Part shown: piece by piece, positions 4,243 through 25,860 of the stretch | Layout: every line of letters begins with the position of its first letter | Position numbering within the stretch: position 1 is the stretch's first letter | Virus record (IMG/VR): IMGVR_UViG_3300020192_000008 | Span: 43,273-107,272 of that record | Length of the DNA: 64,000 bases | Reading direction: 5' to 3' (one strand) | Source: a virus | Notes under the pieces: model-generated | The model's database searches: none | The model's input: only the letters and a program-made list of their open reading frames with translations | What the model was told of the DNA's origin: nothing | Made by a program: the position numbers and the translations under genes

Positions 4243-4938
4243 ATGGATAAAAAACTCATGGGAAGCTGGCCCCGGCTGGTCTCCGTGCTGGAAGCAGCCG
4301 AGATGCTTTCGGTTTCTGTCGATCAAGTCCATCGCTGGAACCGGGATGGTCTACTAGAGGCTGAGTACCCAGAGGGAAGAAGAGGGGGGAAGTACTTCCA
4401 GACGGAAGACATCCAGACCCTCATAGAAGCTCGGGCCAGCAAGACGCTCTCTGACCATGATGTGAAGATTCTAGCCCTTCAGTCTCTGGTCTCCTCCAAG
4501 AGGGCAGAACGAAAACTCGATGAGCTGCTTGGGATGCTCGGTGTTTCGGACGTGAAGCTCGGTACCTCGAGGGAGGAGGTCTTGGCTTTCTTCGTCGAGG
4601 TAGAGGACGAGATCAAGGAGGGTGAGCCGCTCCTACCCGAGGAGGCGATCGGCTGGGCCAAGCGGATGCTGGGCATCACCGAGGAGTACCTGGAGCTAGT
4701 GAAGGAGCACACGTTCATGCTCGAGCCCTGGGTCCCGTACATGCAGCTCTCCAAGAAGCTGCACGACAAGTTCCCAGCAGGGCAGGCAGGGGCCTACCTC
4801 TCTCACGCCATCCGTAATCTTCGGCACACGGCGTACTTCTACGTGCGTCGGGCGGATGGGGTGAGAGAGGCGACGAAGCGCTTTCCCGAGGGTGGCGTGA
4901 CGAGCCAGCTCCTCGGGATCATGTTTCCGAAGAGCTAA
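4243..4938 (+). CDS. MerR/excisionase-like DNA-binding protein
   Basis: 231 residues. Residues about 10-60 match a MerR/excisionase winged helix: a VLEAAEMLSVSVDQVHRW helix-turn-helix followed by a basic wing (GRRGGKYF) and a TEDIQTLIEAR helix. The remaining 170 residues are helical and not recognised. It is the only plus-strand gene in the left head-gene block, so it may regulate or be regulated apart from it. Its TAA stop is exactly the reverse complement of the TTA codon where the convergent terminase appears to end. Coding quality holds to the last residues, so this gene, not the antisense terminase extension, owns the shared 3' region. Confidence 0.8.
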   Translation: MDKKLMGSWPRLVSVLEAAEMLSVSVDQVHRWNRDGLLEAEYPEGRRGGKYFQTEDIQTLIEARASKTLSDHDVKILALQSLVSSKRAERKLDELLGMLGVSDVKLGTSREEVLAFFVEVEDEIKEGEPLLPEEAIGWAKRMLGITEEYLELVKEHTFMLEPWVPYMQLSKKLHDKFPAGQAGAYLSHAIRNLRHTAYFYVRRADGVREATKRFPEGGVTSQLLGIMFPKS

Positions 4939-7836
4939 CCCTTGGTTCGTTGGCCCCGAGTAACCGCCGAGGTTGGGGCCACCGCTCCGAGCGTTCTCTT
5001 TCTTCGGGGTGATGATGTCCGGCCTGGGGTGGATGATCATCGAGCCAACGAAGCAGTAGATGATAGAGTGCAACGCATCATCAGGCCGATCGGGCCTGTG
5101 CTGGTACTGGATCATGTGAAGAGACTGGTTGTACTCTGTGAAGATGTTCAGGATGTCTTGCCCGAACGGCTCACGGAACTCTTCCCACCTGGGGAACATG
5201 ATCTGCTTGCGCTTGATGGCCGTGAAGACATCGCTCACGACTTCCGTCTTGTGCACCTTCCAACGCTGCAGCTTACCGTCCCACTCGACCTTCTTCTTGT
5301 TACGGGCCATGTACTGGAAGCGGTGCACGCGCTGGGTGCCGAAGCGACGGATCAAGTAGGCGTTGTTGTTGAAGCCACCGCCGTAGTCGCACCCGATGAT
5401 GCGGACGTTGTACGCATGCAGGATGCGCTTGATCTTCTCGAGCTGGATCTCAGGGTCCGTGTCTTCACCCGTGAAGCGGTGGATGAAGAAGATCTTGAAC
5501 TTCATCCCGTCGTAGTAGCCGAGACTCATGACCGTGTAGCTGTTCTCGCCCGTGTTACCTTGGTACGCGATGCTTCCGTTACGCTCTGTGACGATGTACC
5601 CCGAAGGCACGGCGCAGCAGTACACCTTGCCCGCATAGGGGACGTGCTTCACCGCCGTGGAGGGGGTGTTGAACTGGTAGTCTCGGCCCTCCGACCACAA
5701 GGCTCTCCAGCGCGTCTTCCGGTTCCCCTCCGCAGGCTTGTGCAGCTTCACGGAGCACCGAAGACCGAGCTTTATGCAGATCTCCTGGAAGTCCTCGCAC
5801 AGCCCTTTTGACGTCGAATAGAAGGCCCCTCCTGTGCAGCCCTCCCGAGGGTCCGTGTAACCGTCTCCGTCTACCAGGGCCTGAAACAAGATCCGAAGCT
5901 GCCTTTGGCCGAGGCCGAGGAACTCCCGTGGGATACGCTTCTCGTCCCCTTCGACCCCTACGTTCTGGGCGTACCACGCCCAGTACTGCTTGCCGTAAAT
6001 GGTCCAGTTGACGTCCCCAGTCTTTGGGTTCGGGAACGCCTTGAACGAGACCCCCACCCGGTCGAGAGACGCCTGCATCTTGAGGTAGGTCTCGTGGTTG
6101 ACCGTCTCCCTCTGCGACATCTTGAGGCAGGACGGGCGGCCCCCATCAAAGCAGACCCCGCCCTCTGTCACGAGATAGCCGAGTAGCTCCAACCAGTCGT
6201 CCATGGGGACGGTCTTGTCCTCAGAGCCCTTGTACCCAGGGCTCGTCGGCAGCCCCGGCAGCGTGAAGGCCTGCTTCTCCTCTCCTTGCCAGTCGACGTA
6301 GCCCACGAACTTGACGTTGCCGCCCCGTTCTACGAGTTCGCCCGCCGACTCGGTGAGCCACCGCTCTCCCTGGGAAGTCCCGACACGCATGCGGTGCGTA
6401 TGGGTGATCATCAGATCGAGCCCCCCCTTGGTCTCGAAGTGTAGAAGTGGCTGGTCCCAGTCGCGTACCGTACGAACCTTCGGAGCCACGAAGGTCATCG
6501 CACGCGTTTCTGGATCCCACTGGGCTACCTTGTCTTCGTCGGTGAGATCACAGAAGTACTTGAAGCCAGACTGCGTAAGAATGCGTGTCTTGTCATCGTG
6601 ACAGCCCCAGTCGATGCCAGCGAAGATGTTGCCGGCGGTAGCCGTCTTGCGGATCTTCTCGAGGGCCGTGGGGTGCATCGTCAGCTTGGGGTCGCATGAC
6701 TCCTTCAGCTGGCCCATGGTGATGGGCCGGAGGCCTGAGTCGTAAGACATCCCCAAGACTTCGTTGTAGAACTTGTCGCGGGGGTACCGCTCGTAGTCGA
6801 GCAGGATTTCCTCCCACGACCGCCAAGGCACCATCAGCTGGGGGATGCGGTAGCTCTCGAAGACCCCGTCACGGACCTGGTTGATCCACTTCGAGTCCTT
6901 GTGCATGGGGTCGATCTTCCCCCCGCACTTCTCGCAGATGAGGCTCTTCTTACCGATGTTCTTCTCGCAGAGGATGTTCCAGTGCCGGCCAGCACCGCCA
7001 CCAACGGAGGACCCGCAGTGGTCGCACGGCACCATCCACTCACCCTGCGTCGACATCGGGCGGCCCTTGGCCACGCCTGACCGGTAGAACTCGATGGGGT
7101 TGTCGAGCCCTTTGGGTGTGCCGGCGTAGATGAAGCGCTTGAACTTCTCCGGAGCGTGGCTTGTGCACTGCTCGATGACGGGGATGTTGTCGGCGAGAAT
7201 GTCTTGGAGCTCGTCGAGGGTGAGCAGCCAGGCTGGGATGCCTCGGGTACGGTCGGCGTTGAGGAACGCATACCTCAAGGTGATCTTCGCCCGGTTGACG
7301 AACTGCTTCTCGAAGATGTTCTGCGACAGCATGGTCGTCGTGAACGTCTTCAAGACCTGGCTCGTCTCGATGGGCTCCTTGATACGGTCGACCGAGAAGA
7401 CCTTCGTCTGCGTGGCTGACGGGCTCACGTACAGCGTCTTGTACGCCGGCACGACGCACGAGTACGAGAGCATGATGTTGCCGATCATGGTCGACTTCTC
7501 GACCTGCCGGCCACAGAACAGGAGCACGCGCCTGGCTGGGGTGTTGTAGGGGCGGCGCATGTGCCGACGCCCCTCAAACGTGAAGTTCTCGTACCCCATA
7601 CCGTCCTGCCGAGGCATCCGGAAGGCGAACTCGGTGAACTGGCTGGGCAGGACAGCGGGGATCTTGACCGCTGCCCTGCGCTTCTCCTCTATCTCCCAGA
7701 AGTCCTCGAAGGGCTCTGGCTCAGGGAGCCAGGGCTTGCCGTTGTGCATCCTTCGGAGTTCTTCGTCTGTGAACTCTTCAGGCTCGAGGTCCTCTTCAGA
7801 AGGGACCGTGACGGGGTCAGGCTGGAAGCTGCTCAC
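4936..7836 (-). CDS. terL: Large terminase subunit with in-frame intein
   Basis: 966 residues to the in-frame TTA (standard-code stop at 4696; the extra part is antisense to the MerR-like gene). The N-terminal ATPase has a deviant Walker A, GRQVEKST, near residue 109 and Walker B LLTLDELQD near 204. A CDHC...CEKC zinc ribbon lies near 271-304. The nuclease starts with GIDWG at 407-411, is interrupted by the intein at 412-761, then resumes with IGCDYGGG near 814 and DDALHS near 916. The enzyme cuts concatemeric DNA and drives it through the portal. GTG start overlaps the upstream TGA (GTGA). Splicing should yield a protein of about 616 residues. Confidence 0.92.
5554..6603 (-). mobile_element. 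Terminase intein with LAGLIDADG endonuclease
   Basis: 350-residue insertion beginning with Cys and ending in Gly-Asn, followed by Thr as the +1 extein residue. The N-terminal splicing block starts CHDDKTRILTQSG and a THTHRM segment resembles block B. Two endonuclease helices, LLGYLVTEGG and LFQALVDGDG, identify the LAGLIDADG (DOD) class. The penultimate residue is Gly instead of the usual His. It sits directly after the catalytic Asp motif of the terminase nuclease, a conserved site where precise removal is essential. Both endonuclease acidic positions look intact, so homing may still be active. Confidence 0.88.
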
Positions 7837-12023: not shown

Positions 12024-13220
12024 TCAAACGAGGCACGATGCTTCGCCCGTGAGGATCATCCCGAAGAGAACAAGGGGAGGACTTCCAGGAACGGGTACTG
12101 GCGTAAAGGGGAAAGTGAGTTGCACCAATGCCCCCTGAGCAGCCACGGGCTTGGAGCCCTTGCCCAGGCGAACAATGCTTCCCTTGACGTGGGCCAGAGC
12201 TCCGCCATCGAGAACCATACCGTTCTTGGCCTTCATCAAGATCTGATTCTCGCTCTCGAGAGTCAGGTCTTCTTTGCTCTTGATGTAGATCTTCTTCTTC
12301 GAGGTGAGAGCCACGTTGCCCTGCGCCCTGAGGAAGACGCCACCAGCCTTGTCGAAGAAGAACCTCATGACAACCTTGTCACGGGTCTTGTTGTCGATGG
12401 GGTCCCCTGTGTCTGCGTTGAATCCCTTGGGGGCTATCACGCACTCAACCACGATCTGCTCCTTACCGATGCTGAGCAAGTCGAGCAGGCCCTGCTCACC
12501 ACCATCACCCGATGGCTCGATGATGGGGTCATGAATCTTGCCCACCTTCACCCGAACATCTGCCTCTTCATCATTGGCCAGGATGCGAAAGGTGTGGGTG
12601 TACTCGCTGGGTAGGTCCTGGTAAGCCGGGCCTTCTTGGATGCCCCAAAGAACAGACCCACCGTGGTTGTGGTGGGCATAGTTCTTCGTCATCTGCATCA
12701 ACGTATCGGTGAGCGGGATGTAGATGCTCTGGCAGATCTCCGAGCAGCCGATCTGCAATACACCGCCCCGATGAAGGATAACGAAGTTGCCATCCCTCGT
12801 ACGGAACCAGATGTCACCCGGCTTGGCCTTGGGCCTACCCCCTGAGAAAGTCGCGCTAGTCGAGCTCTTGTTCGGCTGGTTGTTCGACTGCGTTCCCTTG
12901 GGCGCGTCCGGAGCTGCCTGGTCGTTGTACTCAACCGGCATGATGAACGAGCTCACGTAAGGGGGTGAGCTGTCGGAGGGGACGGTGACCATGCACTTGG
13001 CACCAACCTCGGGGAAGACGTAAGCGCCCTCCCCGTTGTTGTAGTGCAAGTACATGCTGCCTACTTGGATGCCAGCAAACCTATGCCGGTCGAACTGGCT
13101 GATGACATCCACCGTCCAGTTCGCCAGGTTGACGCCGACGATCTTCCCTTGAAGAACGTACGACTCAACGTTCCCCTCCATGAAGGTGAACGAGGTGCGG
13201 AAGCGTTGGATGCCTTGCAT
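12024..13220 (-). CDS. Baseplate spike protein (gpV/gp5-like OB fold and beta-helix)
   Basis: 398 residues. The N-terminal 100 residues look like the OB-fold of baseplate assembly protein V/gp5 (GKIVGVNLANWTVDV, then VFPEVGAKCMVTVPSD). The C-terminal part has the alternating polar/hydrophobic strands typical of the triple beta-helix spike (VALTSKKKIYIKSKEDLTLE). It would form the membrane-puncturing tip of a contractile tail. The ATG overlaps the RNA polymerase stop as TGATG, so it is translated directly after that gene. No lysozyme domain is present between the OB fold and the helix. Confidence 0.75.
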   Translation of the reverse strand: MQGIQRFRTSFTFMEGNVESYVLQGKIVGVNLANWTVDVISQFDRHRFAGIQVGSMYLHYNNGEGAYVFPEVGAKCMVTVPSDSSPPYVSSFIMPVEYNDQAAPDAPKGTQSNNQPNKSSTSATFSGGRPKAKPGDIWFRTRDGNFVILHRGGVLQIGCSEICQSIYIPLTDTLMQMTKNYAHHNHGGSVLWGIQEGPAYQDLPSEYTHTFRILANDEEADVRVKVGKIHDPIIEPSGDGGEQGLLDLLSIGKEQIVVECVIAPKGFNADTGDPIDNKTRDKVVMRFFFDKAGGVFLRAQGNVALTSKKKIYIKSKEDLTLESENQILMKAKNGMVLDGGALAHVKGSIVRLGKGSKPVAAQGALVQLTFPFTPVPVPGSPPLVLFGMILTGEASCLV

Positions 13221-16200
13221 CAGTAGCTGTGCTCCGACACGTTCTCGAGGTGCTTGTAGCCAGGCAGCTTCGACTGGTTCTTGTTCAGACCAAACTCAGC
13301 GCCGTAGGCAATCGCGGGGATCGGGTGGCTGCCGTGCAAGTTGCTCTTCGACCGCATGGCTGCGCCCTCGGCGATGGTGTCGCGGAGGTTGCGGTGCTGC
13401 AGCTTCGCCATCCAGTCTTCCTGCAGTTCGAGGGGCATCATGTTGACGCCCTTCAGAACAGGGGTGTGCTCGATGGGCTTCTTGCCCGCTTTGGCCAGGT
13501 CGTTGTTCATCTTCTGCACCATGCTCAGGGGCTGGAACTCGCCGCGCAGAATGCCCTCTGAGTCCCCAGGATGCACGACCTTCGTGAGGTTTGACATGGC
13601 TTTGACGACTACTTCGACATGGCGGCGCTTGATGCCCTCGTCCTTGTAGAGGGAGTACATCTCGCTTACGAGGTGGTTCTGCACCTTGTCGATGGAGCCA
13701 GTGGCCTTGTAGAGGTCGTGCGGGTTGAGCACGGTTCGGTGGGGGTCGGACAGAGACTGCCCAGCCTCGATGTGGTCACCGATCTTGGGGGGCGCCCAGC
13801 TGAGCAGGTTCTCCTGGCCTGGCAGCAGGTGGTGCAGAGGCATGCCTGTCTGGTCCTTGCCGACATGGTGAGGGCGCTTGCCGACCCACACGTTCACGCC
13901 CGTCGCTGTGTTCTCCACCTTCTCCACCTTGCCCGAGACCATGGCCAGGGAGGCCGCGTTGGGGATCTTCTGGGGGAGCATGGCGAGCTGCTCGAAGCGG
14001 CCGAAGCCCGACACAGCGGCTGAGGCACCACCGGCGACACCGCCAGTGTGGAACTCCTTCATGGTGAGCTGCACGGCTCGCTCACCGAGCGTGTGGCTTG
14101 AGAGCACCCCGATGTTGTCGCCGATGTTGTGCATGTGGCCAGTTGAAGACAGGCCTACGCACTTCTGGCAGATGCCCTTCTCATGCTCACACCGCAGCGG
14201 GCTACGCACCACGATCTTGGCATTCTTATCGGCGGCCTTGATCTGCGCGACCTTGTCGGGGGTGAGCAGCTCCCCGGCCTTGATGTGTACGTGCCCAGCC
14301 TTGAAGTCGGAAGCCAGCAGGCGATCGTGTACATCCTTCTCGTTGATGTGCAGAGAGATGCCCCTGGTCGTCCCGCAGTCGGGCTGGGTCACGAGGATGT
14401 CCATCGTGTTGTTCTGCAGCAGCTTGGACATGTAGCCAGGTTCCTGGGTCTCCTGAACCTTCATGACCGAGCCCCTGCGAGCTCCGTGCATCTGCGTCCA
14501 GTACCCGGCCATATCGAGGCCTTCGGAGTAGCTCTTCGTAACAGGCAGCGGGATGACCCTGTTGTTCGCGTCCGTGAGCAGCATGGGCGCAATCTTCATC
14601 TGCTTGTACTGAGCCCACGACGGCTTAGCCCCAGCCTTGTACATGATGTACAAGTTGTCCATCTTCTTGTCGGCTTCGATCTTGTGGGCGTCGCCGATCT
14701 CCTTGTCGGCCTTCATGTAGATGTCAACGATACGACGCTCCTTGTCGTTCTTGTTGACCCTACTAGCCCGAACAGCATCCGCCTCCTTGTGAGCGCCGAC
14801 GAGCACCTTGTCTCGACCGATCTTGTCCGTCTGGAAGTCGGCAAGAGAGAGCGTGTGCATGCCCGTGGGTACGAAGATGTTCTTCTTCGGATCGTTGATG
14901 TTGTGAACACCAACGTTAGGCATGGGCACGGTCACCGTGCCGAAAGCCGAGTGGTTGCCCACGTCCTTCAACATGTTGACTGACTTGTCGAACTGATCCT
15001 TGTGGTCTTTGCCGAGCTTGGTGAGCAGTGACTCAAGGCCCTTCTTATCGATACGCATCTCCAGGTTGTGGAGAAGGTCTGCTTGCATGCCGAGCGGCAT
15101 GGTAGTAGCGAGAAGAACCCGGCCAGCGGTCGTCTTCTTACCGTTGAGAGAGACCACGTCGTTGTAGTGGAACTTGCCCCCTCGCACGGCGTCAAGGATG
15201 TCGCCAGGAGTCTTGAACGTATGGCTCGTTTCTTTACCAACCATCGAAAGCTTGTAGAGCCCGATGGCCGAGTCGAGGGTGGGGATGAACGCCACCCGCC
15301 CCGTGTTCTCCATGAAGATATTGTTCGACGGCTTCATGCGGTGCGCTTCGGCAACCGCGTCCCTGTGGATGGGGACGAAGACGCTCATGGTGTCTCCGTC
15401 GAAGTCGGCGTTGAACCCACCGCAGACAAGCGGATGGATCTTGATGGCGTTGCCCTCTACACGCTTAGCCTGAAATCCCTGCACGTTGTACTTGTGAAGG
15501 GCGGGGTCACGCTTGAGCAGGATAGGTCGCTCTTCCATCACGGAGTCGAGGGCCTTGATGACGCTGGGATGATCTTTCTTCGTAAGGAGCTTCTGCGCGT
15601 CGAGAGGGTTCGATGCCGCACCCATCTCCTGAAGCTTCTTGACGATGAAGGGGCGAAACAGATCAAGCGCGTGGTCCTTCGGGAGACCGACCTCATCAAG
15701 CCCCAGCGAGGGCTCTGGGACGATGGTCGAGCGCATGGTCAGGTCCTGCCGCTTCTGGACGACGGACTTCTGGAAGTACCCGTTCTTCGGGGAGGCACCG
15801 GAAATCTGATGAAGGAGCCCCTTGTGCTTTGCCTGAGCGTAGGGGACGTGTATCCCGATGACAGCCTTGACGCCGTCGTAGTAGTTCTGACGAAGCTCCT
15901 TCTTCATCTCGTCGGTCAAGTGCCGCGCCAGCGTCGGGTCCTTGAGCTTATCGTTGACAAGGGCGAACTCCGAGTACAGCTGGTTGATGTCGGCGTACTT
16001 GATGTTGCCATCAGCCATCGGGGACGCCGGCCGAAGGACTGGTGGGATGATGGGCATCTTCGTCATTACGTAGGCTTCTGATGCGCCTACGCCCAACTGA
16101 TCGAGAGCCCTGAGGTACTTCACCTTCTTCAAGACCGGGTCAACCTTGGCCATGGGAACGGAGTTGAGCTCCTTCATCCCGGCGGCCAGGTCCTTCTTCA

Positions 16201-19200
16201 CGTCGACCTTCGAGAGCAGGTGCTGGATGGCCCGACCACCGGTGTGGGCTGCGTCCTTGAGCTCGACGATCTTCCCCTGGTGGTTGATGCCCGACTCGCC
16301 GTGAACGATGGCGTCGAAGTCCTTCTGGGTCAGGCCCGTGAGACTGCGGATGGGGGCCTCGAACACTGGGTTCGGCACCGGCTCTGCGAGATCGATGTGG
16401 CTCCACTTGATGCCGCCGTGCCCACCGGTGAGCTTCTCATCAAAGAGACCACCAGGCCTGGGCTTGAGCTCACCGGACTTGTCGACCTTGGCTTCGAGGC
16501 GTTCAGCTGGCTTGGGCAGGGCCCTGCCAGCCGAGAGCTCCATCACATGCTTGTCCGTCAGGGGCGAGAGGATGAGCTCGTGGCCCTTCTTCTCGATGTT
16601 CACCCCTGAGCCCTTGAGCATGTCCTCGAACTTCTTGAAGGCGAAGGTGCTCTTGGGCGTGGGCAGAGGAGCGCCTGTCTGGATGGCGTTCCACACCTGC
16701 AGGTGCTGGCTTGGCCACTTCTTGCTCTCGTTGGTCTGGGGGTCTTCACCCTCCCCCTTCCACGTCTGCATCTCCCGGATGTTCGCCTTCGCCCCGTGGG
16801 CAAGCAGGGCGTACATACCGAGTGAACCGATGCGCTGACCTGAGCCGGGCTGCAGGTTCTGGTCATAGCGGTCACGGTTGGGTTGACCTGGAAGGCCCAT
16901 GCCCGAAGCCACGGTGACCTTCTTGTCGACCTGGTGAACCAGCTTGAGGATGTGCTGGTGACCCGTCATGGCATGCCCCAGTGATTGCCCCGTGACCGGG
17001 TCGATGAGCTCCTCGGTGTCGTGCAGGCCGTGGCTCTTCAGCTCCGCCTGCACCTTCGCCACCATGTCGACGTCCTTCTGAAAGGCCTGAACGACGTAGG
17101 GCTTACCCGTCTTGATGGCGATCTTCGACGCTGCCGTCTCGAGCAGTTGGCTCACATTCATACGACCAGGCACGCCCGTGGGGTTGAGCGCTACCTCGAT
17201 GGGCTTGCCATCCTTGCTGTGGGGCATCTCATGGTCGGGCAGAACCATGGTGACAATGCCCTTGTTGCCGTACCGACCGGCGAGCTTGTCGCCTGACTGC
17301 ATGGGCTCGTGCGTCTTGACGTGTACCTGCAGGCCACCCTTGCCATTGGTGACAGAGACAACTTCCCCCTCAACCTCTCCCTCCCAGCGCAGGGACTTGT
17401 CGGCATGGCTGCCGGCCAGAGACTTGCGGATGGCCGAGACACCCGTCCTGTCCTTGAGCTCGAAGGGCTTCATGGCCAGGGCCAGGGGATCTCCAGGGGT
17501 GACCTTGGAGCCAACCTTGATGACGCCGTCGTCACCGAAGTTGACCAGCTGCTCCTTCTTGTAGACCCCGGGGTGTTGGATCTGAAACTTGCGGGTGCTC
17601 AGGATGGTGTCGGTGTCGACGGGCACCGTGTGCTTGTGCAAGTGCATCGAGGCGAGCTTCTTGGAAGCCGTCTCGCTGATGACAACGCCGTCCTCGAAGT
17701 TGTACCCCTTGAAGGGGATGAAGGCGACGCGCAGGTTTGAGCCAAGCGCGAGAACGCCATCCTTCGAGTAGTTGGTGTCAGCGACTGTCTCGCCCTTCTT
17801 CACCTTGTCACCCACCTTCACAAGAGCGCTCGAGTGGAGCACGCTCTTCGTGTCATTGGTCGGGTAGTGGTTGTAGAGAGGGACGTCGTGCTTGTCGCCG
17901 TTCTTGTCCTTGATGACGATGTTGTCAGCGTGGATTGAATGCACGACACCATCAGCCGTTGCTTGGTGCGAAGCCTGGCTGCCAAGCACGGCCTCGAAGC
18001 TCTGAAGGCCTGGCGTGTAGACGCCGGTGCCCACCTGAACGAGAGGCGCTTCTCGGTTGACGAGGGAGATAGACTGCTCGATGTGGCGGGTGGCCATCGA
18101 CACGCGGTTGCCCGAGCAGTTGTTCATGAACGGCACGAGGTTCGATGTCATGTTGAACACCTGGCTCGAGTGCTTCATGACGTAGTGGGCATCCTTGAAG
18201 GGGATGGGGCCCATGTCGTTGTCGTCTTGGGCGGCCTGCACCGTCTTGCTCAGTGGGACCGGCTTGCCGTTCTCCCACTTCACCTGGTCTGCCAGCACCA
18301 CGCTTGACTTCATGAACAGAGCAGGGGGGACCAAGTCCATCTTGCCCGTCTTGAGGTTGTACAGGGGGACAACAGGATCGTTACCCAGCTTCCGTACACC
18401 GAGAGGCAAGCGCAACGTCACGCCAGTCTTCGAGCCTTCGGGCGTGTTCACGGGATCGAGAAAGCCGAAGTGGCTCTTGTTGAGCATCTTCGCTTCGTTG
18501 GTGACAGCCTGCTCACTCTGGATGCCGCCCGAACCCATGATGGTAGTCTGCATTGCAGAGCTCATCATCTCGACCGGGTTGATCTGAGAAGCCACACGAG
18601 CTGCAGAGTTCTTGTGGAACGACTGCTTGATCGGCTCGTTGAACATCTCGAGCTTTACGATCTCCCTGATGTCGCTCTTCGAGTTGATGTTCCTCGATGC
18701 CTTCATGGCGATGGTTCGACCAGCCGCCTTGATCTTGTCGTGGGCGAAGTCTCCAGCTGAACGCAGGTCCTTGAAGATGAGGCTGTCCCGGTCATCCTCT
18801 GGGTGACCCGCCTGCACCTTGAGCATCTTCTGCGTCGCCAGGTGCAAGGCCTCACCACTCACGTGATCGATGGGCTTGCCCAGCGTGACGGACGTAGCGT
18901 CAGTACGCATCTTCGAGTTCTGCATCGCCTCGAAGAAGTGCGTCTCAGCAACCTCCTTCGAGATAGGTGCCTCTTTGCGGTCTGACTTGTAGAAGCGCTC
19001 GAGCGTACCGGCGGCACCACGGGCATTCTTGTTGGCCGCGAAGATCTCTTTGCCCCAGCTCTTCTCGAGATCGTCGTCAGAGATGCCCATCGTCTTGATG
19101 AGCGGATAGAGCGGCAGTTTGCTCTTGTTGTACTCCATGTAGAACTGCTTCGACTTCTCATCGAAGAGCACATCGAATGGAGCCTTGCCCTGAACGTTGA

Positions 19201-19600
19201 AGCGTGTCTCGAGCTCACCGTTCTGACGACGACGCGTGTAGGCACCGGGCTTGAGTTGCCACTGATTGTCGACCTGGTACTCCTGCCCATCCATGATGTA
19301 GGAGTAGCGCTGAGTCTGACGGGGGATCTCCGCGATGCGTACGCGGCGTTGATCCACCACTTTGCCAGTGGCGTTATCAACGAGACGCATGTGCCCGTAG
19401 ACTGGAGCAGAGAAGCTGCCGCCGTTGATCTTCGCCTTGTGTTGGACCCTCAAGTCATCGGGGTGTAGCTCATCCTTTACTTCAAGCTTGTCAAGGTGAA
19501 GGGTCTGCACCTTCCCCTTCATAGGGAAGTTCGTCTGGATGCCTTCCAGCGTTCTATCGCGGAAGTGCTCGAACGCTTCTTGAGGGTCTAGATGAGCCAT
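13220..19600 (-). CDS. rpoBC: Fused beta-beta' multisubunit-type RNA polymerase
   Basis: 2126 residues in one frame. The beta half has a TPEG segment near 383, GYNFEDGVVIS near 632, GDKLAGRYGNKG near 767, LNPTGVPGRMN and GQRIGSLGMYALLAHGA near 920. The beta' half follows with PPVLRP, a degenerate LLKRDPALHKY, the metal-binding NADFDGD at 1397-1403, a bridge/trigger-loop region (HGARRGSVMKV) near 1705, a CxxxxxxCxxC zinc motif near 1805 and VQLTMKEFHTGG near 1848. Escherichia coli beta plus beta' total about 2750 residues, so this is a reduced fusion. No alpha, omega or sigma gene is visible. It heads the minus-strand baseplate operon and may be a virion-packaged or late polymerase. Confidence 0.95.
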   Translation of the reverse strand: MAHLDPQEAFEHFRDRTLEGIQTNFPMKGKVQTLHLDKLEVKDELHPDDLRVQHKAKINGGSFSAPVYGHMRLVDNATGKVVDQRRVRIAEIPRQTQRYSYIMDGQEYQVDNQWQLKPGAYTRRRQNGELETRFNVQGKAPFDVLFDEKSKQFYMEYNKSKLPLYPLIKTMGISDDDLEKSWGKEIFAANKNARGAAGTLERFYKSDRKEAPISKEVAETHFFEAMQNSKMRTDATSVTLGKPIDHVSGEALHLATQKMLKVQAGHPEDDRDSLIFKDLRSAGDFAHDKIKAAGRTIAMKASRNINSKSDIREIVKLEMFNEPIKQSFHKNSAARVASQINPVEMMSSAMQTTIMGSGGIQSEQAVTNEAKMLNKSHFGFLDPVNTPEGSKTGVTLRLPLGVRKLGNDPVVPLYNLKTGKMDLVPPALFMKSSVVLADQVKWENGKPVPLSKTVQAAQDDNDMGPIPFKDAHYVMKHSSQVFNMTSNLVPFMNNCSGNRVSMATRHIEQSISLVNREAPLVQVGTGVYTPGLQSFEAVLGSQASHQATADGVVHSIHADNIVIKDKNGDKHDVPLYNHYPTNDTKSVLHSSALVKVGDKVKKGETVADTNYSKDGVLALGSNLRVAFIPFKGYNFEDGVVISETASKKLASMHLHKHTVPVDTDTILSTRKFQIQHPGVYKKEQLVNFGDDGVIKVGSKVTPGDPLALAMKPFELKDRTGVSAIRKSLAGSHADKSLRWEGEVEGEVVSVTNGKGGLQVHVKTHEPMQSGDKLAGRYGNKGIVTMVLPDHEMPHSKDGKPIEVALNPTGVPGRMNVSQLLETAASKIAIKTGKPYVVQAFQKDVDMVAKVQAELKSHGLHDTEELIDPVTGQSLGHAMTGHQHILKLVHQVDKKVTVASGMGLPGQPNRDRYDQNLQPGSGQRIGSLGMYALLAHGAKANIREMQTWKGEGEDPQTNESKKWPSQHLQVWNAIQTGAPLPTPKSTFAFKKFEDMLKGSGVNIEKKGHELILSPLTDKHVMELSAGRALPKPAERLEAKVDKSGELKPRPGGLFDEKLTGGHGGIKWSHIDLAEPVPNPVFEAPIRSLTGLTQKDFDAIVHGESGINHQGKIVELKDAAHTGGRAIQHLLSKVDVKKDLAAGMKELNSVPMAKVDPVLKKVKYLRALDQLGVGASEAYVMTKMPIIPPVLRPASPMADGNIKYADINQLYSEFALVNDKLKDPTLARHLTDEMKKELRQNYYDGVKAVIGIHVPYAQAKHKGLLHQISGASPKNGYFQKSVVQKRQDLTMRSTIVPEPSLGLDEVGLPKDHALDLFRPFIVKKLQEMGAASNPLDAQKLLTKKDHPSVIKALDSVMEERPILLKRDPALHKYNVQGFQAKRVEGNAIKIHPLVCGGFNADFDGDTMSVFVPIHRDAVAEAHRMKPSNNIFMENTGRVAFIPTLDSAIGLYKLSMVGKETSHTFKTPGDILDAVRGGKFHYNDVVSLNGKKTTAGRVLLATTMPLGMQADLLHNLEMRIDKKGLESLLTKLGKDHKDQFDKSVNMLKDVGNHSAFGTVTVPMPNVGVHNINDPKKNIFVPTGMHTLSLADFQTDKIGRDKVLVGAHKEADAVRASRVNKNDKERRIVDIYMKADKEIGDAHKIEADKKMDNLYIMYKAGAKPSWAQYKQMKIAPMLLTDANNRVIPLPVTKSYSEGLDMAGYWTQMHGARRGSVMKVQETQEPGYMSKLLQNNTMDILVTQPDCGTTRGISLHINEKDVHDRLLASDFKAGHVHIKAGELLTPDKVAQIKAADKNAKIVVRSPLRCEHEKGICQKCVGLSSTGHMHNIGDNIGVLSSHTLGERAVQLTMKEFHTGGVAGGASAAVSGFGRFEQLAMLPQKIPNAASLAMVSGKVEKVENTATGVNVWVGKRPHHVGKDQTGMPLHHLLPGQENLLSWAPPKIGDHIEAGQSLSDPHRTVLNPHDLYKATGSIDKVQNHLVSEMYSLYKDEGIKRRHVEVVVKAMSNLTKVVHPGDSEGILRGEFQPLSMVQKMNNDLAKAGKKPIEHTPVLKGVNMMPLELQEDWMAKLQHRNLRDTIAEGAAMRSKSNLHGSHPIPAIAYGAEFGLNKNQSKLPGYKHLENVSEHSY

Positions 19601-19715
19601 CTTTGTGTCTCTGGTGAGGGTACTCCACGCGCAAGAGTCGGTGCAAGGTACGCTTTTTCAGCGGCATAAGGACTTTGATTGGGCACTAGCGCTCAGTCTC
19701 AAGGAGATGCGAAGC
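19601..19715. promoter_or_regulatory. Divergent intergenic region, likely promoters
   Basis: The 115 bases separate the start of the RNA polymerase gene from the plus-strand small-gene run, so promoters for both directions probably lie here. A CATAAG element at about 19668 is the only -10-like box I can see; it resembles ATAA-containing boxes in other divergent gaps of this window. AAGGAG at 19701-19706 is the ribosome site of the plus gene. No convincing -35 element. Confidence 0.35.
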
Positions 19716-20480: not shown

Positions 20481-21055
20481 GGCTTCTCCCGGGTGCACAG
20501 GACGACGAGGAAGAGACCGTCAGTGACGCTGAGCCTGAGTTCGACTCAGGCCAGCGTTGCTCTATCTGCGGCGAAGCCCTCCTCCTCACCGAGGAGGTCT
20601 TCTGTCTTGAGCTCAGGCAAGCCTGGGTTGAAGGCGGCGAGCTGCAGACCTTCCCCCTTCTTGACGCCGACGGAGAACCGGAGTTCACCTCGTACATCTT
20701 TCACTTCGAGTGCTGGGAGAGCGCTACGCATGAGCTCGGAGAACAAGTCGAGGACATCCCAGCCCTCACTTCCCTCGAGAAGCTTCTCGAATGCACGGAG
20801 TGTGGCAACAGCATCACTGCCTGGGACCCGTACTGCGCCGTCACCTTTGGAGAACTACATGCCTCCAAAAGGCGACCGTCTGGAGCGCCGGCGGTTCACT
20901 TCACGGGCCTATCGAGGCCACTTCCGCTCTGCTTGGTCTGCGTGGCCAGGCTGATCGATGAATGTTTCGACGACTGGGAAGACGGCGTCATGGAGCGTCT
21001 TCCGATGATTGAACACCTGTACCAACAGTACATCGCCGGAGAACAAGAAGAATGA
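20462..21055 (+). CDS. Zinc-ribbon protein
   Basis: 197 residues. Three Cys pairs (CSIC, CTEC, CLVC) plus His/Cys residues (FHFECW) give two likely treble-clef or ribbon zinc sites. The rest is acidic. Start chosen at the second ATG of the frame because GAGGG lies just upstream. The TGA overlaps the next start as ATGA, tying it to the MoxR-type ATPase. Probably an adaptor or nucleic-acid/protein-binding factor; family unknown. Confidence 0.65.
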   Translation: MGGHFLRLLPGAQDDEEETVSDAEPEFDSGQRCSICGEALLLTEEVFCLELRQAWVEGGELQTFPLLDADGEPEFTSYIFHFECWESATHELGEQVEDIPALTSLEKLLECTECGNSITAWDPYCAVTFGELHASKRRPSGAPAVHFTGLSRPLPLCLVCVARLIDECFDDWEDGVMERLPMIEHLYQQYIAGEQEE

Positions 21056-22308
21056 GCGTATCTCTCGAGACCATCCTCTCCACGTCCTTCCTCGTCCCCC
21101 TCGGGGACCCGCTCAAGCCCAACTGCTACTGGGGCCTGAACGTCATGCTCTGGGGCAGCCCCGGCATCGGCAAGAGCGCACGCGTCAGGTCTGCTGCCGC
21201 CAAGGCGGGTCTGCCCACCGAGGTTGTCATCGCCGCAACGCGCCAGCCCGAGGACGTGTCGGGCGCTGCCTTCCCCGACGGCCAGGGCGGCGTGAACATC
21301 AAGACCCTGCTGCCAGGCGTCCAGCGCCTCATCAAGGACGAGCAGGGCGTGCTCTTCCTCGACGAGCTCTCCTGCGCCAGGCCCGCTGTGCAGGCAGCCT
21401 TCCTCGGCGTCGTACTCGATCGCAGGGTCGGTGACGACATGCTGCCCCCAGGCATCCGCGTTCTCGCTGCTGCCAACCCCCCCGAAGAAGCCGCCGGCGG
21501 CTGGGACCTCGAGCCCCCCATGGCCAACCGGTTCTGCCACGTCAACGTCCCCGCCCCCGTCGTTGCCGAGTGGACGGCCTGGTTCCTCAGCCAGTCGAGC
21601 GGCAGGGTCGAAGACGTCGAGATGGGTGAGAAGAAGGTCCAGGAAGGCTGGGGTGAGAACTGGCCGGCTGTGCAGGGCCTCGTCTCAGGCTTCCTGCAGG
21701 ACCGCTCGTCGGCTCTCTACAGCATGCCCAAGGAGGGCTCGAAGGACCGCTCGAGGGCCTGGCCTTCCCCACGCACCTGGGAGATGGCCGCTCGCAGCAT
21801 GGCCACCGTGCGCTGCCTCTTCCCCCTGCCCACCGGCAAGCCCCTCTCCGATGAGCAGAAGAAGGAGCACGCTCGCAAGACCGCTACCCACGACATCCTC
21901 ATGTCCACCCTGCTCGAGGGCTGCATCGGTCGCGGCGTTGCCGCTGAGTTCATCAACTGGGTCAAGGCAGCTGACCTCCCCAGCCCCTCCGATGTCCTCA
22001 AGTTCGGCTACGTCGTCGACAAGCGCCGGCTCGACATCGCCATGGCTGCCTACAGCTCCATGATCTCCTACGTCCTCACCAAGCCCACGCGCGATGAGAA
22101 GGTCGCCCTCGCCTCCCTCGCCTGGACCCGACTCCATGAGCTCAGCAAGCAGGGCCTGGCCGACATGGCCATCCCCAACATCCAGGCCATGATCTCCAAC
22201 GACCTCGGCACCCGCGCTGGCAAGAAGGAAGTGAACGATGCCATGCGGCCTCTGCTCATGGACTTCATCAAGCGCGGCCTCGAGAAGTACATGATCGAGG
22301 ATAAGTGA
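21052..22308 (+). CDS. MoxR-family AAA+ ATPase
   Basis: 418 residues. Walker A GSPGIGKS near residue 37, Walker B GVLFLDEL near 99, sensor-1 AAANP near 141 and an ANRF segment at 162 where MoxR proteins carry the second-region Arg. MoxR ATPases remodel or insert cofactors into partners that usually contain VWA domains. The gene immediately downstream is exactly such a partner, two or three bases away, so the pair is probably one chaperone system. Unusual in a phage among structural operons. Confident on family; substrate unknown. Confidence 0.85.
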   Translation: MSVSLETILSTSFLVPLGDPLKPNCYWGLNVMLWGSPGIGKSARVRSAAAKAGLPTEVVIAATRQPEDVSGAAFPDGQGGVNIKTLLPGVQRLIKDEQGVLFLDELSCARPAVQAAFLGVVLDRRVGDDMLPPGIRVLAAANPPEEAAGGWDLEPPMANRFCHVNVPAPVVAEWTAWFLSQSSGRVEDVEMGEKKVQEGWGENWPAVQGLVSGFLQDRSSALYSMPKEGSKDRSRAWPSPRTWEMAARSMATVRCLFPLPTGKPLSDEQKKEHARKTATHDILMSTLLEGCIGRGVAAEFINWVKAADLPSPSDVLKFGYVVDKRRLDIAMAAYSSMISYVLTKPTRDEKVALASLAWTRLHELSKQGLADMAIPNIQAMISNDLGTRAGKKEVNDAMRPLLMDFIKRGLEKYMIEDK

Positions 22309-23613
22309 ATGGCTCTCTCTTCCTCCCTCTCCTCAACTGAGCGCGCTGAAACGCTCATGGCTGAGGCTCGGGCCCTCATCCACAAACAAACCCCCTACCT
22401 GATGAGCCTCGTCTACTCATTCATCCCCAGGGAAGCTCCCGAGCTCCAGACCATGGGCATCACCAAGGGGCTCGTCCTGTACTACGGCCCCGAGTGGCTG
22501 CTCAAGTGCACGCCAGAACAGGTTGCTGCTGCTCTCGTTCATGAGTGCCTGCACATCCTGCGAGACCACCTGCCTCGCATCGCTGCATGCGCTGACAAGG
22601 AGAAGGGCAACGTCGCCGCCGACCTGGCCATCAACCCGGCCGTCGAGGAGATGAAGTACAAGCTGCCTCACGGCGTCTTCCCCAAGGACTTCAAGCTCCC
22701 CAACGAGCTCACCCTGGGGGAGTACTACGACAAGATCCCCGCCTCCGCGATGGACAAGATGCGGCAGGGTCAAGGCCAAGGTCAGGGCCAAGGCACCCCC
22801 GGCAAAGGCCCCCCAGGCCAGGGCCAAGGGATGGGTATCGGCAGCGGCTCTTGCGGGGGTATCGCCGGCAACGCCGATGACCAAGAGTTCGAGGACGCCC
22901 TCGATCAAGAGCTGGGCGGCAAGACCGAGACGGAAGTCAAAGCCGCTCGGAACAAGACGATCGACAGCATCAAGAAGTGGGCTGAGGCAAAGGGCCGGGG
23001 CAATATGCCTGGCTCCTTCCAACAGTTCATCGACATGGACCTGAATGAAGCGGCTCATGTGCCGTGGCAGCAGGTCCTCAAGTCCGTCCTCAAGCGCTGC
23101 TGCGGTCGTCTCGAATCGGGTGGTCAAGACTTCTCTCGGACCCATCCGTCCAAGCGAAGCTACGCCCGGGGGATGATCATCCCAGGCATGGTCGACTACC
23201 AGCCGGAGGTCGCGTTCATCCTCGATACCTCGGGGTCCATGAGTGACAAGGACATCCAGGAGTGCTTGCGGGAAGCCATCGGCGTCTTGAAGTCACTCAA
23301 CATCGAGACAGCCTGGCTTCTGCAGGCTGACATGTCCGTTGCCACGGCCCCGAAGAAGGTTCGTGTCAAAGACATCAAGGCTGGTCTCACCATCCACGGC
23401 CGTGGTGGGACTGACTTCGATGACGCCTTTCGCAAGGTCGACAGGCTCAAGCCGAGGCCAGACCTGGTGATCTATCTCACCGACGGTGACGGTGGCGTCA
23501 CCTACCAGCCGAAGATGGAAGTCATCTGGTGTCTTGTGAGCAACCACAGAACAACAGCACCTGCTTCCTGGGGGTACCCCGTCTTCGTAAGGCAAGATGA
23601 ACATGGTAGGTAA
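22309..23613 (+). CDS. Metallopeptidase-like and VWA domain protein (DUF2201 type)
   Basis: 434 residues. The N-terminal domain has HECLH near residue 77, a zinc-peptidase HExxH motif. A Gly/Gln-rich linker (GQGQGQGQGTPG and similar) lies near 155-180. The C-terminal domain has the MIDAS signature DTSGS near 306 and a later YLTDGDGG. This is the architecture of DUF2201/VWA-like proteins that pair with MoxR ATPases. It starts one base after the stop of the ATPase gene. The complex may mature or dismantle a protein assembly during infection; the target is not evident. Confidence 0.8.
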   Translation: MALSSSLSSTERAETLMAEARALIHKQTPYLMSLVYSFIPREAPELQTMGITKGLVLYYGPEWLLKCTPEQVAAALVHECLHILRDHLPRIAACADKEKGNVAADLAINPAVEEMKYKLPHGVFPKDFKLPNELTLGEYYDKIPASAMDKMRQGQGQGQGQGTPGKGPPGQGQGMGIGSGSCGGIAGNADDQEFEDALDQELGGKTETEVKAARNKTIDSIKKWAEAKGRGNMPGSFQQFIDMDLNEAAHVPWQQVLKSVLKRCCGRLESGGQDFSRTHPSKRSYARGMIIPGMVDYQPEVAFILDTSGSMSDKDIQECLREAIGVLKSLNIETAWLLQADMSVATAPKKVRVKDIKAGLTIHGRGGTDFDDAFRKVDRLKPRPDLVIYLTDGDGGVTYQPKMEVIWCLVSNHRTTAPASWGYPVFVRQDEHGR

Positions 23614-23838: not shown

Positions 23839-25860
23839 TCAGACTGCTGCCTGAGCTCTCCTGGGGGGAAGCTTCTCGGGCAATGGCGTCATGTTGACGG
23901 CGGGTTGAGCTGCCTGTCCCGGGCCTGTGGCGATGCCCATCTTGGCGAGCATCTGCCGGACCATGTCTGCGAGTTCGGGGCTTTGCGCTTCGAGGTTCGA
24001 GAGAGCTGCCTGCTGTTGGTCAGCGGGCATGCTGGAGATCATCTGGGCTTGCTGGTAGGCGATGGTGGGCAGGTCCATCTGTCCGCCTGGGGGCATCTGC
24101 TGGCCGGCGTTGAGGGGGGATTGGGTCTGGCTCATGGGGTCAGGCTGGCCACCCTGGGGGTTGGCTTGTGATTGCTGGCCTGGCGACTGACCCGGGGCTG
24201 CCTCGGCCGGCATGCCCTGCTCTTGCCCGCCTGGGGTGCCTTGACCCATGGCGTCTTGTCCGCCTGGCTCTCCAGGGGCAGGGCCCTGGGCCATGTCCTG
24301 CTGTTGAGCCTGTTGCGCCTTGGCCTGGTACTTCCCCATGATGAGCTGCTGCTGACCTTGAAGGTCTGCCGTAGCAAGCTGCTGAGCCCGGGTAGCCTCG
24401 ATACGGCTGGCCGTCTCTTTCTTCATGATGGCGTTCTCCTCTTCCTGAGAGAGGTCAGCGTCAGCAAGAAGGGTGGTGTCGGAGATCTTCTGGCCCTGGT
24501 TGAGCTGGAAGAGGTAGGCCTTGCGCTGCAGGTCGTCGGCCATCTTGAAGGGCTTGAACCTGATGTTCACCTTCGGCCATTGCATGAAGGCGGCGACCTC
24601 GTTCATCACCCACTTGACCATGGCCTTGTGGCGCAGGATGTAGCCGATGAACGCGTTCTCGAGCATCCGCATCGACACGTTCGTGCCGGCGTAACTCATG
24701 CCGCCGAGGAGGAACTCCCTCGGCACACCCATGCCCGTGATGATCTGCTCCGACCACTGCTGGATTTCTCCAGTGAGGAGGAGAGCCCGTCCATCGCCGC
24801 CCACGGTCTGGTTGCCGAGGGGCAGAGGCATGATGGGGATGTAGTTCTGGTCCCACCTCCACTTCGCAATCTCACCGGCGACGTGCTCACGCCACTCGAC
24901 CAGGTTGATGGTGGTGTAGGGGTCTGAAGTACCCGAGCCTGCCTGAGGGAACAGGATGCGCAGAGGGACAATGTGCTCGAGGAGGATGGCCTCCTGCGCT
25001 TTCTTCATCACCTGCAGGTAGAAGACGTCCTTGAGGACGGGCATGAGCAGGGGGATGCCCCAGCCACGGTCTTGTGTTGCCAGGGTAGGCCGGCGCAGGT
25101 GGAAGAAGTTGTCCTTGGAGAAGACAATGCCCTTCGCTTCTTTCAGCGCCGCAATGAAGACCTGCGGCACTCCTTCAACGACTTCCTTCTTGCCGATGAG
25201 GATGTCGTTCTTCACCTGCGGAGGGATCGTATAGAAGTAGGTGTACTCCCCGGTGACGTCGTTGTACTGGACCTCGACGTCTTCAGGGTTCCACCTGATG
25301 AGCTTGATGCCTGCGGCGTTGCGGATGTAGAAGTCCTGCGCAACGGCGTCAGCTGTGGTGCCGCACTTGGGGCACGTCATCCGGAAGGCGTAGTTGGTGA
25401 TGACCCAGCTGTTGCGGGTCTTCTTGGCAGGGGCCGAGAACTGGCAACTCGAGCACTTGAGGTACTTGGTGAACGGGTAGCTGATCGACACCATCCCGTT
25501 GCCGTAGCAGTTGTAGTCGAGGCCAACCTCGATCTGAAACGCACGGTAGCGCAGGTGGTCCTGGAAGTAGTCGGTCCACTTCCGCACGACTTCCGGGTCT
25601 TCGTGATCGATGATGAGGTCAGTGACAGGGTACTCACTGAGCTTGAACACCGTCGCGTTGATGAGCGGGTTCGTCAGGAAGTAGTACCGGCACCACTGGA
25701 ACATCTTCTTCATCGTCTGCGGCAGCCATGTCTGCGCGACGTCAAAGAAGGGGCTGGGGTAGCTGACGCTATTCGCCATAGCCCCCTGCATCCTGCCCCG
25801 GGACATTGTCCTCATCCCAGGACCCGCCCCACCACCACCCGGATTACCGATCATACTCAT
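23839..25860 (-). CDS. Portal protein
   Basis: 673 residues. The central region is portal-like: stem/wing strands and GMGVPREFLLGG followed by NVSMRMLENAF, a typical portal crown/clip segment. It forms the dodecameric DNA gate at one capsid vertex and docks the terminase. A zinc ribbon (CSSC at about 136, CPKC at about 163) is inserted in the N-terminal half, which is unusual for portals. The last 170 residues are a Gln/Gly/Pro-rich disordered tail. It is translated just after the Gly-rich protein upstream and ends before the bidirectional terminator. Confidence 0.82.
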   Translation of the reverse strand: MSMIGNPGGGGAGPGMRTMSRGRMQGAMANSVSYPSPFFDVAQTWLPQTMKKMFQWCRYYFLTNPLINATVFKLSEYPVTDLIIDHEDPEVVRKWTDYFQDHLRYRAFQIEVGLDYNCYGNGMVSISYPFTKYLKCSSCQFSAPAKKTRNSWVITNYAFRMTCPKCGTTADAVAQDFYIRNAAGIKLIRWNPEDVEVQYNDVTGEYTYFYTIPPQVKNDILIGKKEVVEGVPQVFIAALKEAKGIVFSKDNFFHLRRPTLATQDRGWGIPLLMPVLKDVFYLQVMKKAQEAILLEHIVPLRILFPQAGSGTSDPYTTINLVEWREHVAGEIAKWRWDQNYIPIMPLPLGNQTVGGDGRALLLTGEIQQWSEQIITGMGVPREFLLGGMSYAGTNVSMRMLENAFIGYILRHKAMVKWVMNEVAAFMQWPKVNIRFKPFKMADDLQRKAYLFQLNQGQKISDTTLLADADLSQEEENAIMKKETASRIEATRAQQLATADLQGQQQLIMGKYQAKAQQAQQQDMAQGPAPGEPGGQDAMGQGTPGGQEQGMPAEAAPGQSPGQQSQANPQGGQPDPMSQTQSPLNAGQQMPPGGQMDLPTIAYQQAQMISSMPADQQQAALSNLEAQSPELADMVRQMLAKMGIATGPGQAAQPAVNMTPLPEKLPPRRAQAAV

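Follow-up and report, generated by a model that had tools for sequence, protein, structure and literature searches.

We identified, on the minus strand of the window (the whole 64,000-nucleotide stretch of viral DNA analysed here), a single uninterrupted frame of 2126 aa, without a stop, that encodes a full-length RNA polymerase (RNAP) beta subunit followed by a full-length beta' subunit (Table 1). Pfam searches of this ORF returned Rpb2_6 (1.7e-58), Rpb1_2 (1e-25), Rpb1_5 (7e-21) and Rpb2_3 (8e-9), with the beta domains first and the beta' domains second. Alignment with bacterial, phage and metagenomic sequences revealed that YNFED, GDKLAGRYGNKG, NADFDGD, the bridge helix and the trigger loop (QLTMKEFHTGG) are all intact; the alignment shows no inactivating changes in the catalytic loops. 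A first-pass annotation had described a single-chain beta-beta' RNAP of cellular (bacterial) type in a phage, with the hallmark segments in cellular order and NADFDGD preserved, and the single ORF, the Pfam order, the motifs and the predicted fold bear this out. The sequence shows a bacterial-type beta-beta' RNAP in one chain, apparently catalytically intact, in a contractile-tailed phage. The source record is a linear virus contig of 107,272 bp lacking end repeats, and is probably incomplete because the genomes of relatives reach 185-199 kb.

Table 1. Features of the fused RNA polymerase locus, in window coordinates.
Feature	Coordinates	Strand	Evidence
Fused beta-beta' RNA polymerase ORF, 2126 aa	13220..19600	-	Frame, Pfam, relatives, motif alignment
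Beta half, residues 1-1003	16592..19600	-	Pfam Rpb2_3 and Rpb2_6; AF2 model; beta tree
Junction, beta C-terminus to beta' N-terminus, residues 1004-1045	16466..16591	-	Alignment with bacterial beta/beta' ends
Beta' half, residues 1046-2126	13223..16465	-	Pfam Rpb1_2 and Rpb1_5; AF2 model; beta' tree
YNFED motif of beta, residues 633-637	17690..17704	-	Motif alignment
GDKLAGRYGNKG, catalytic lysines of beta DPBB, residues 770-781	17258..17293	-	Motif alignment
Site of deleted beta' N-terminal zinc ribbon, residues 1046-1080	16361..16465	-	Alignment
NADFDGD, catalytic Mg-binding loop of beta', residues 1397-1403	15392..15412	-	Sequence and alignment
Bridge helix, residues 1702-1728	14417..14497	-	Motif alignment
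Second zinc site, conserved Cys 1742, 1804, 1811 and 1814	14159..14377	-	Alignment
Trigger loop, residues 1836-1856	14033..14095	-	Motif alignment
Promoter-like element CTTGCN-N17-GTACNCT, just upstream of RNAP start	19617..19647	-	Comparison with relatives
Portal protein gene	23839..25860	-	Match to Arash gp204 (E 3e-86); synteny
Directly downstream gene, start overlapping the RNAP stop by 1 nt (TGATG)	12024..13220	-	Conserved in most relatives
Large terminase of the same module, with intein	4696..7836	-	Profile and sequence matches

The two halves were modelled separately with AlphaFold2 (AF2; residues 1-1110 and 1000-2126) from an input alignment of window and contig sequences. The model of the beta half (pLDDT 86.9) has its best match to a solved bacterial beta at TM 0.75, and that of the beta' half (pLDDT 87.5, pTM 0.82) matches a solved bacterial beta' at TM 0.82. 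These matches span nearly the whole length of each half, and each is predicted to fold like its bacterial counterpart.

A profile scan of IMG/VR recovered 302 contig stretches encoding relatives of this RNAP. Among the best 80 of these 302, about 70 are complete. With few exceptions, these complete relatives encode beta and beta' as one ORF, usually of 2000-2200 aa, or longer if an intein is present; identity of the complete fused relatives is 33-68%. An assembly artefact is ruled out as the cause of the fusion, since independent metagenomes yielded ~70 complete relatives with such a single ORF. The fusion had been called unusual at first reading, but it is not peculiar to this phage and is the norm across a large clade of uncultured phages. 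A later scan added a second, more distant fused group (group B: L190, L193, L199, L201 and L235), with chains of 2240-2330 aa. In class C relatives, beta' and beta are separate genes, with beta' first.

The polymerase is not a single ORF in Salmonella phage Arash, Vibrio phages D69 and D181, and contigs L246 and L263. Arash and D69 are split just past the catalytic barrel (DPBB) of beta', where the alignment reaches approximately window residue 1487, and D181 has an extra split within beta at which an annotated homing endonuclease is found. A post-barrel split of beta' has also been reported for phiKZ-type and cyanobacterial enzymes (PMC7598289). High-scoring 'phage' records of Enterococcus, Staphylococcus, Listeria, Salmonella and Acinetobacter carry ordinary separate rpoB and rpoC, and we set them aside as cellular contaminants. 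No relatives emerged when viral sequences were scanned with the Cobetia/Yersinia beta' as query.

Several relatives have further distinctive features. Intein-like insertions follow NADFDGD in L004 (10001-17935) and L079, the latter with another in the trigger loop after FH, and occur in the GNK loop of beta in L092 and L095. The L004 insert starts with Gln and runs for ~90 residues before a recognizable intein block. The RNAP frame of L085 (9932-16003) contains 11 in-frame TGA codons, and this phage probably reads UGA as Trp, because about half of them align to Trp of the window protein or its relatives; L087, L218 and L219 have one TGA each in the RNAP frame. Another fused RNAP, of 2200 aa, is encoded by L188 (6581-13180; contig of 36.9 kb) and groups as sister to bacteria in two trees, that of beta and the combined one; the same contig encodes an alpha subunit. 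L100 (3763-10263) has a full fused RNAP gene on a contig binned with a Deltaproteobacteria (Myxococcota) genome, possibly a hint of the host or a binning error.

At the site of the beta' N-terminal zinc ribbon, the window chain has 35 residues and no Cys, compared with 67 residues and five Cys in Salmonella. The ribbon is gone in every fused-clade phage aligned and is retained in class C and in bacteria. The clamp helices, which are the sigma-binding element in bacteria, are present in the alignment but altered. The residues aligned with D516, H526 and S531 (E. coli numbering), which we take to be rifampicin-pocket positions, are Ser, Ser and Thr, and on this basis we predict that the enzyme is insensitive to rifampicin.

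Phylogenetic analyses of each half, a check proposed with the first-pass annotation, and of the halves combined agree in placing the fused phages in one clade outside the sampled bacteria, a position that does not by itself date the acquisition, since the trees are unrooted and were built without archaea, epsilonproteobacteria (Helicobacter included) or published mReC sequences. The sampled bacteria form a single clade (99-100), and fused groups A and B together form another, within which the Arash/Vibrio splits fall (support of 94 for beta, 100 for beta' and 98 for the combined C20 tree). In AU tests under a simple model with a 26-row subset, joining the fused phages to gammaproteobacteria was rejected (p 1.3e-6), as was exclusion of the split phages Arash and D69 from the fused group (p 8.5e-12). 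Given the tree placement and these rejections, the fusion is most simply ancestral in the clade, and the splits in Arash, D69, D181, L246 and L263 are secondary.

Helicobacter and Wolbachia have fused rpoBC with beta and beta' in the same order as the window chain; theirs is a cellular enzyme with alpha, omega and sigma. The comparison with Helicobacter made in the first-pass annotation stands for the architecture only; as to kinship, a gammaproteobacterial affiliation is rejected, in a tree without Helicobacter. A host operon captured recently, and fused as in these bacteria, would account for the canonical motifs and the bacterial fold, and fused rpoBC does exist in some bacteria. We nevertheless consider such a capture very improbable: the AU test rejects a gammaproteobacterial source, every tree (each built without epsilonproteobacteria) sets bacteria apart as a clade of their own, and all fused phages examined have lost the zinc ribbon that bacteria keep.

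We did not detect alpha in any of 20 relatives, in group B, in class C, in the Arash/Vibrio phages or in the record of the window phage itself, and no omega scored above the cut-off in 21 records; controls for both searches were positive in nearly all cellular genomes. The sole exception for alpha is L188, whose separate fused RNAP is closer to bacteria. The earlier remark that no alpha or omega is visible thus extends to every fused-clade phage searched. The companion remark about sigma is true of the partial 107-kb record, in which nothing matches Sigma70_r2, r3, r4 or a clade-specific profile, but not of the clade: 23 of its 28 records contain a gene for a divergent protein with Sigma70 region 3. 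This sigma-like family, which includes Arash Gp10, matches Sigma70_r3 at 1e-8 to 1e-11 and a PHROG sigma, and is found in nearly all large clade members; weak matches to it also come from three of the seven group B records and from L246 and L263, which have split genes. Only 4 of 20 relatives show a clear Sigma70 region 2, and certain members of the clade have further, different sigma factors.

NADFDGD, the GDK...GNKG lysine loop, the bridge helix, the trigger loop and the folds are those of a bacterial-type double-psi barrel RNAP, whereas alpha and omega (in the fused-clade phages searched) and the beta' zinc ribbon (in all fused phages aligned) are absent. We therefore regard the enzyme as working like a bacterial RNAP, not as a complete cellular-type complex. 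A phage core that borrows alpha, omega and sigma from the host to form a hybrid enzyme would be consistent with the missing alpha and omega genes, the bacterial-like predicted fold, and the presence of sigma-binding clamp helices, altered as they are. Such borrowing seems improbable to us, given that a phage sigma-like gene is nearly universal among large clade members and that the phiKZ and AR9 enzymes function without alpha and omega (PMC7598289).

The portal gene is upstream of the RNAP gene on the same strand in nearly all relatives, and group B likewise has it directly upstream. In the window clade, RNAP is usually 3' of the portal and 5' of a conserved gene set that closes with the large terminase. 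The terminase intein begins with a Cys after GIDWG, ends in GN before TGEN, and has a LAGLIDADG domain; the same site is occupied in L004 and L023 and empty in L003, L031 and L090. A mini-intein of ~150 aa (RTGRLS/C...FAHN/CSDPNLQN; Pfam Hint and Intein_splicing) interrupts a family A DNA polymerase at 37359-39752 (plus strand). Between the portal and RNAP genes lies a divergently oriented pair, a MoxR-like AAA ATPase and a DUF2201/VWA protein (21052-23613, plus strand), that is conserved in the closest relatives.

A relaxed form of the promoter-like element CTTGCN-N17-GTACNCT lies no more than 110 nt from the RNAP start codon in 16 of 37 relatives, compared with a mean of 0.06 for shuffled sequences and 1 of 5596 for other sequence windows. 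This count is only descriptive because the pattern was built after viewing the sequences and the relatives are not independent. The full element has one copy in the 107-kb record, and we therefore reject it as a genome-wide promoter. With a promoter-like element of its own, the RNAP gene need not share expression with the late genes.

Published virion mass spectrometry covers one relative, phage Arash, which is ~32% identical and has its RNAP in two pieces. The beta-containing Gp206 gave 3516 spectra, the most of any virion protein, the C-terminal beta' Gp216 gave 1210, and the sigma Gp10 gave 467 (PMC10585845). The authors of that study allow for carry-over of abundant proteins, and the virion list (PMC10585845) includes primase, ligase and RNR, enzymes that to us resemble carry-over. 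A SNF2-type helicase gene lies beside the gene for C-terminal beta' (L006 31091-32509, corresponding to Arash gp217), and its product gave 1148 spectra in Arash virions. Whether a close relative with the same enzyme had already been described, one of the points on which the first-pass annotation had made its claim depend, has a divided answer: Arash was published in 2023 with an RNAP in its virion, but that RNAP is split in two and a beta-beta' fusion is not mentioned there.

The Arash virion data and the portal/terminase synteny together lead us to favor, by inference, a virion polymerase for the window phage. The best reading is a single-chain virion RNAP core that would work with a co-packaged sigma, and particles of the window phage probably contain the chain together with a sigma-like partner of its own. 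We assign a probability of about 0.7 to the whole of this explanation, in which the core and its sigma partner would carry out early transcription without the host RNAP.

Alternatively, the chain may be a non-virion polymerase made during infection for middle or late genes, similar to the phiKZ nvRNAP, with early genes transcribed by the host RNAP. The conserved promoter-like element of the RNAP gene, the additional sigma factors of some clade members, and the absence of the Arash gp196 sigma from the virion protein list (PMC10585845) are consistent with this possibility. We consider it unlikely, as the gene lies between portal and terminase in most relatives and the one beta-beta' set annotated in Arash provides the top virion protein by detection (PMC10585845). 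The great abundance of the protein in Arash virions (PMC10585845) could also indicate that polymerase function has been lost and that the chain is a virion structural protein. This idea has very little to recommend it, because the catalytic loops are all kept across the fused clade despite identities of 33-68%, and the inteins of relatives sit exactly in those loops, as is usual for conserved catalytic sites.

Among described systems, Arash (Gp206 and Gp216; PMC10585845) and Vibrio phages D69, D148 and D181 fall in the same clade as the window RNAP in both half-trees, and share portal, MCP and tail genes with the window clade. Arash and D69 resemble the window chain in that beta is fused to N-terminal beta'. 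The Arash/Vibrio enzymes differ from it in having a split gene, AADYDGD in place of NADFDGD, and an altered trigger loop; they are annotated as beta and beta', and the fusion goes undiscussed.

The mReC RNAPs (PMC7481178) resemble the window chain in that they are phage enzymes whose bacterial-type beta and beta' are full-length, can be aligned, and branch separately from cells. Their paper (Weinheimer and Aylward 2020, PMC7481178), which brings up fusion for crAssphage only, reports PF07068 matches for the major capsids of mReC. Neither the record of the window phage nor any of the fused-clade records tested has a PF07068 capsid, so capsid type does not place it with mReC. PF07068 matches came from just two class C-type records and from Cobetia and Yersinia phages; most class C records are unmatched, and so are most mReC contigs in that paper. 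A further mark of mReC is a beta and a beta' of at least 800 aa, with NADxDGD, on a distinct deep branch. The window chain forms a distinct branch in trees built without the published mReC sequences, and the separate-gene phages of class C fit mReC better than the fused clade does.

The vRNAP and nvRNAP of phiKZ and AR9 are likewise beta/beta' enzymes of tailed phages and have neither alpha nor omega; one set is in the virion, and beta' is split after the DPBB, as in Arash (PMC7598289). Unlike the window enzyme, they consist of 4-5 chains, are far more diverged and have no recognizable sigma. The window beta and beta' are unsplit, which separates the chain from this type. The YonO and P23-45 enzymes are very diverged double-barrel proteins that cannot be aligned over the full beta and beta', whereas the window chain is full-length and alignable and therefore not of the crAss/YonO type. 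What it shares with them and with the crAss-like enzymes is that all are phage enzymes with both catalytic barrels in one chain. The crAss-like RNAP is similarly a very diverged double-barrel protein, unalignable over full beta/beta' (PMC7481178), and the tape-measure-fused enzyme of P23-45 is reported to be a virion RNAP (PMC10770324). No description of the fused architecture was found in the literature searched, a search whose reach excluded most subscription papers.

We propose that the catalytic core descends from a bacterial-type alpha2-beta-beta'-omega enzyme or its sister, and that beta and beta' fused once, in the phage ancestor. In the window phage, the chain would be made late and packaged with a sigma-like partner, then injected with the DNA, and would transcribe the early phage genes without the host RNAP. 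The covalent link may keep the halves together, replacing part of the assembly role that alpha and omega have in cells.

In cells, alpha is taken to be the platform on which every RNAP assembles. The chances are about even that this large phage lineage has the simplest full-length bacterial-type transcription machine so far: a packaged one-chain core with a divergent sigma and without alpha, omega or zinc ribbon, branching outside the sampled bacteria, in a clade where splitting by homing elements would offer a route to phiKZ-type fragmentation. The clade also bears on the fragmentation of phage RNAPs: within it, the fused state is most simply ancestral and the splits, including those of phiKZ-like post-DPBB form, are derived. 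With a natural single-chain core that keeps the full fold, one or two proteins would suffice for direct tests of alpha-independence, ribbon-free sigma recruitment and insensitivity to rifampicin. Overall, the window enzyme appears to be a strikingly simple relative of the enzyme that reads the genes of every cell.
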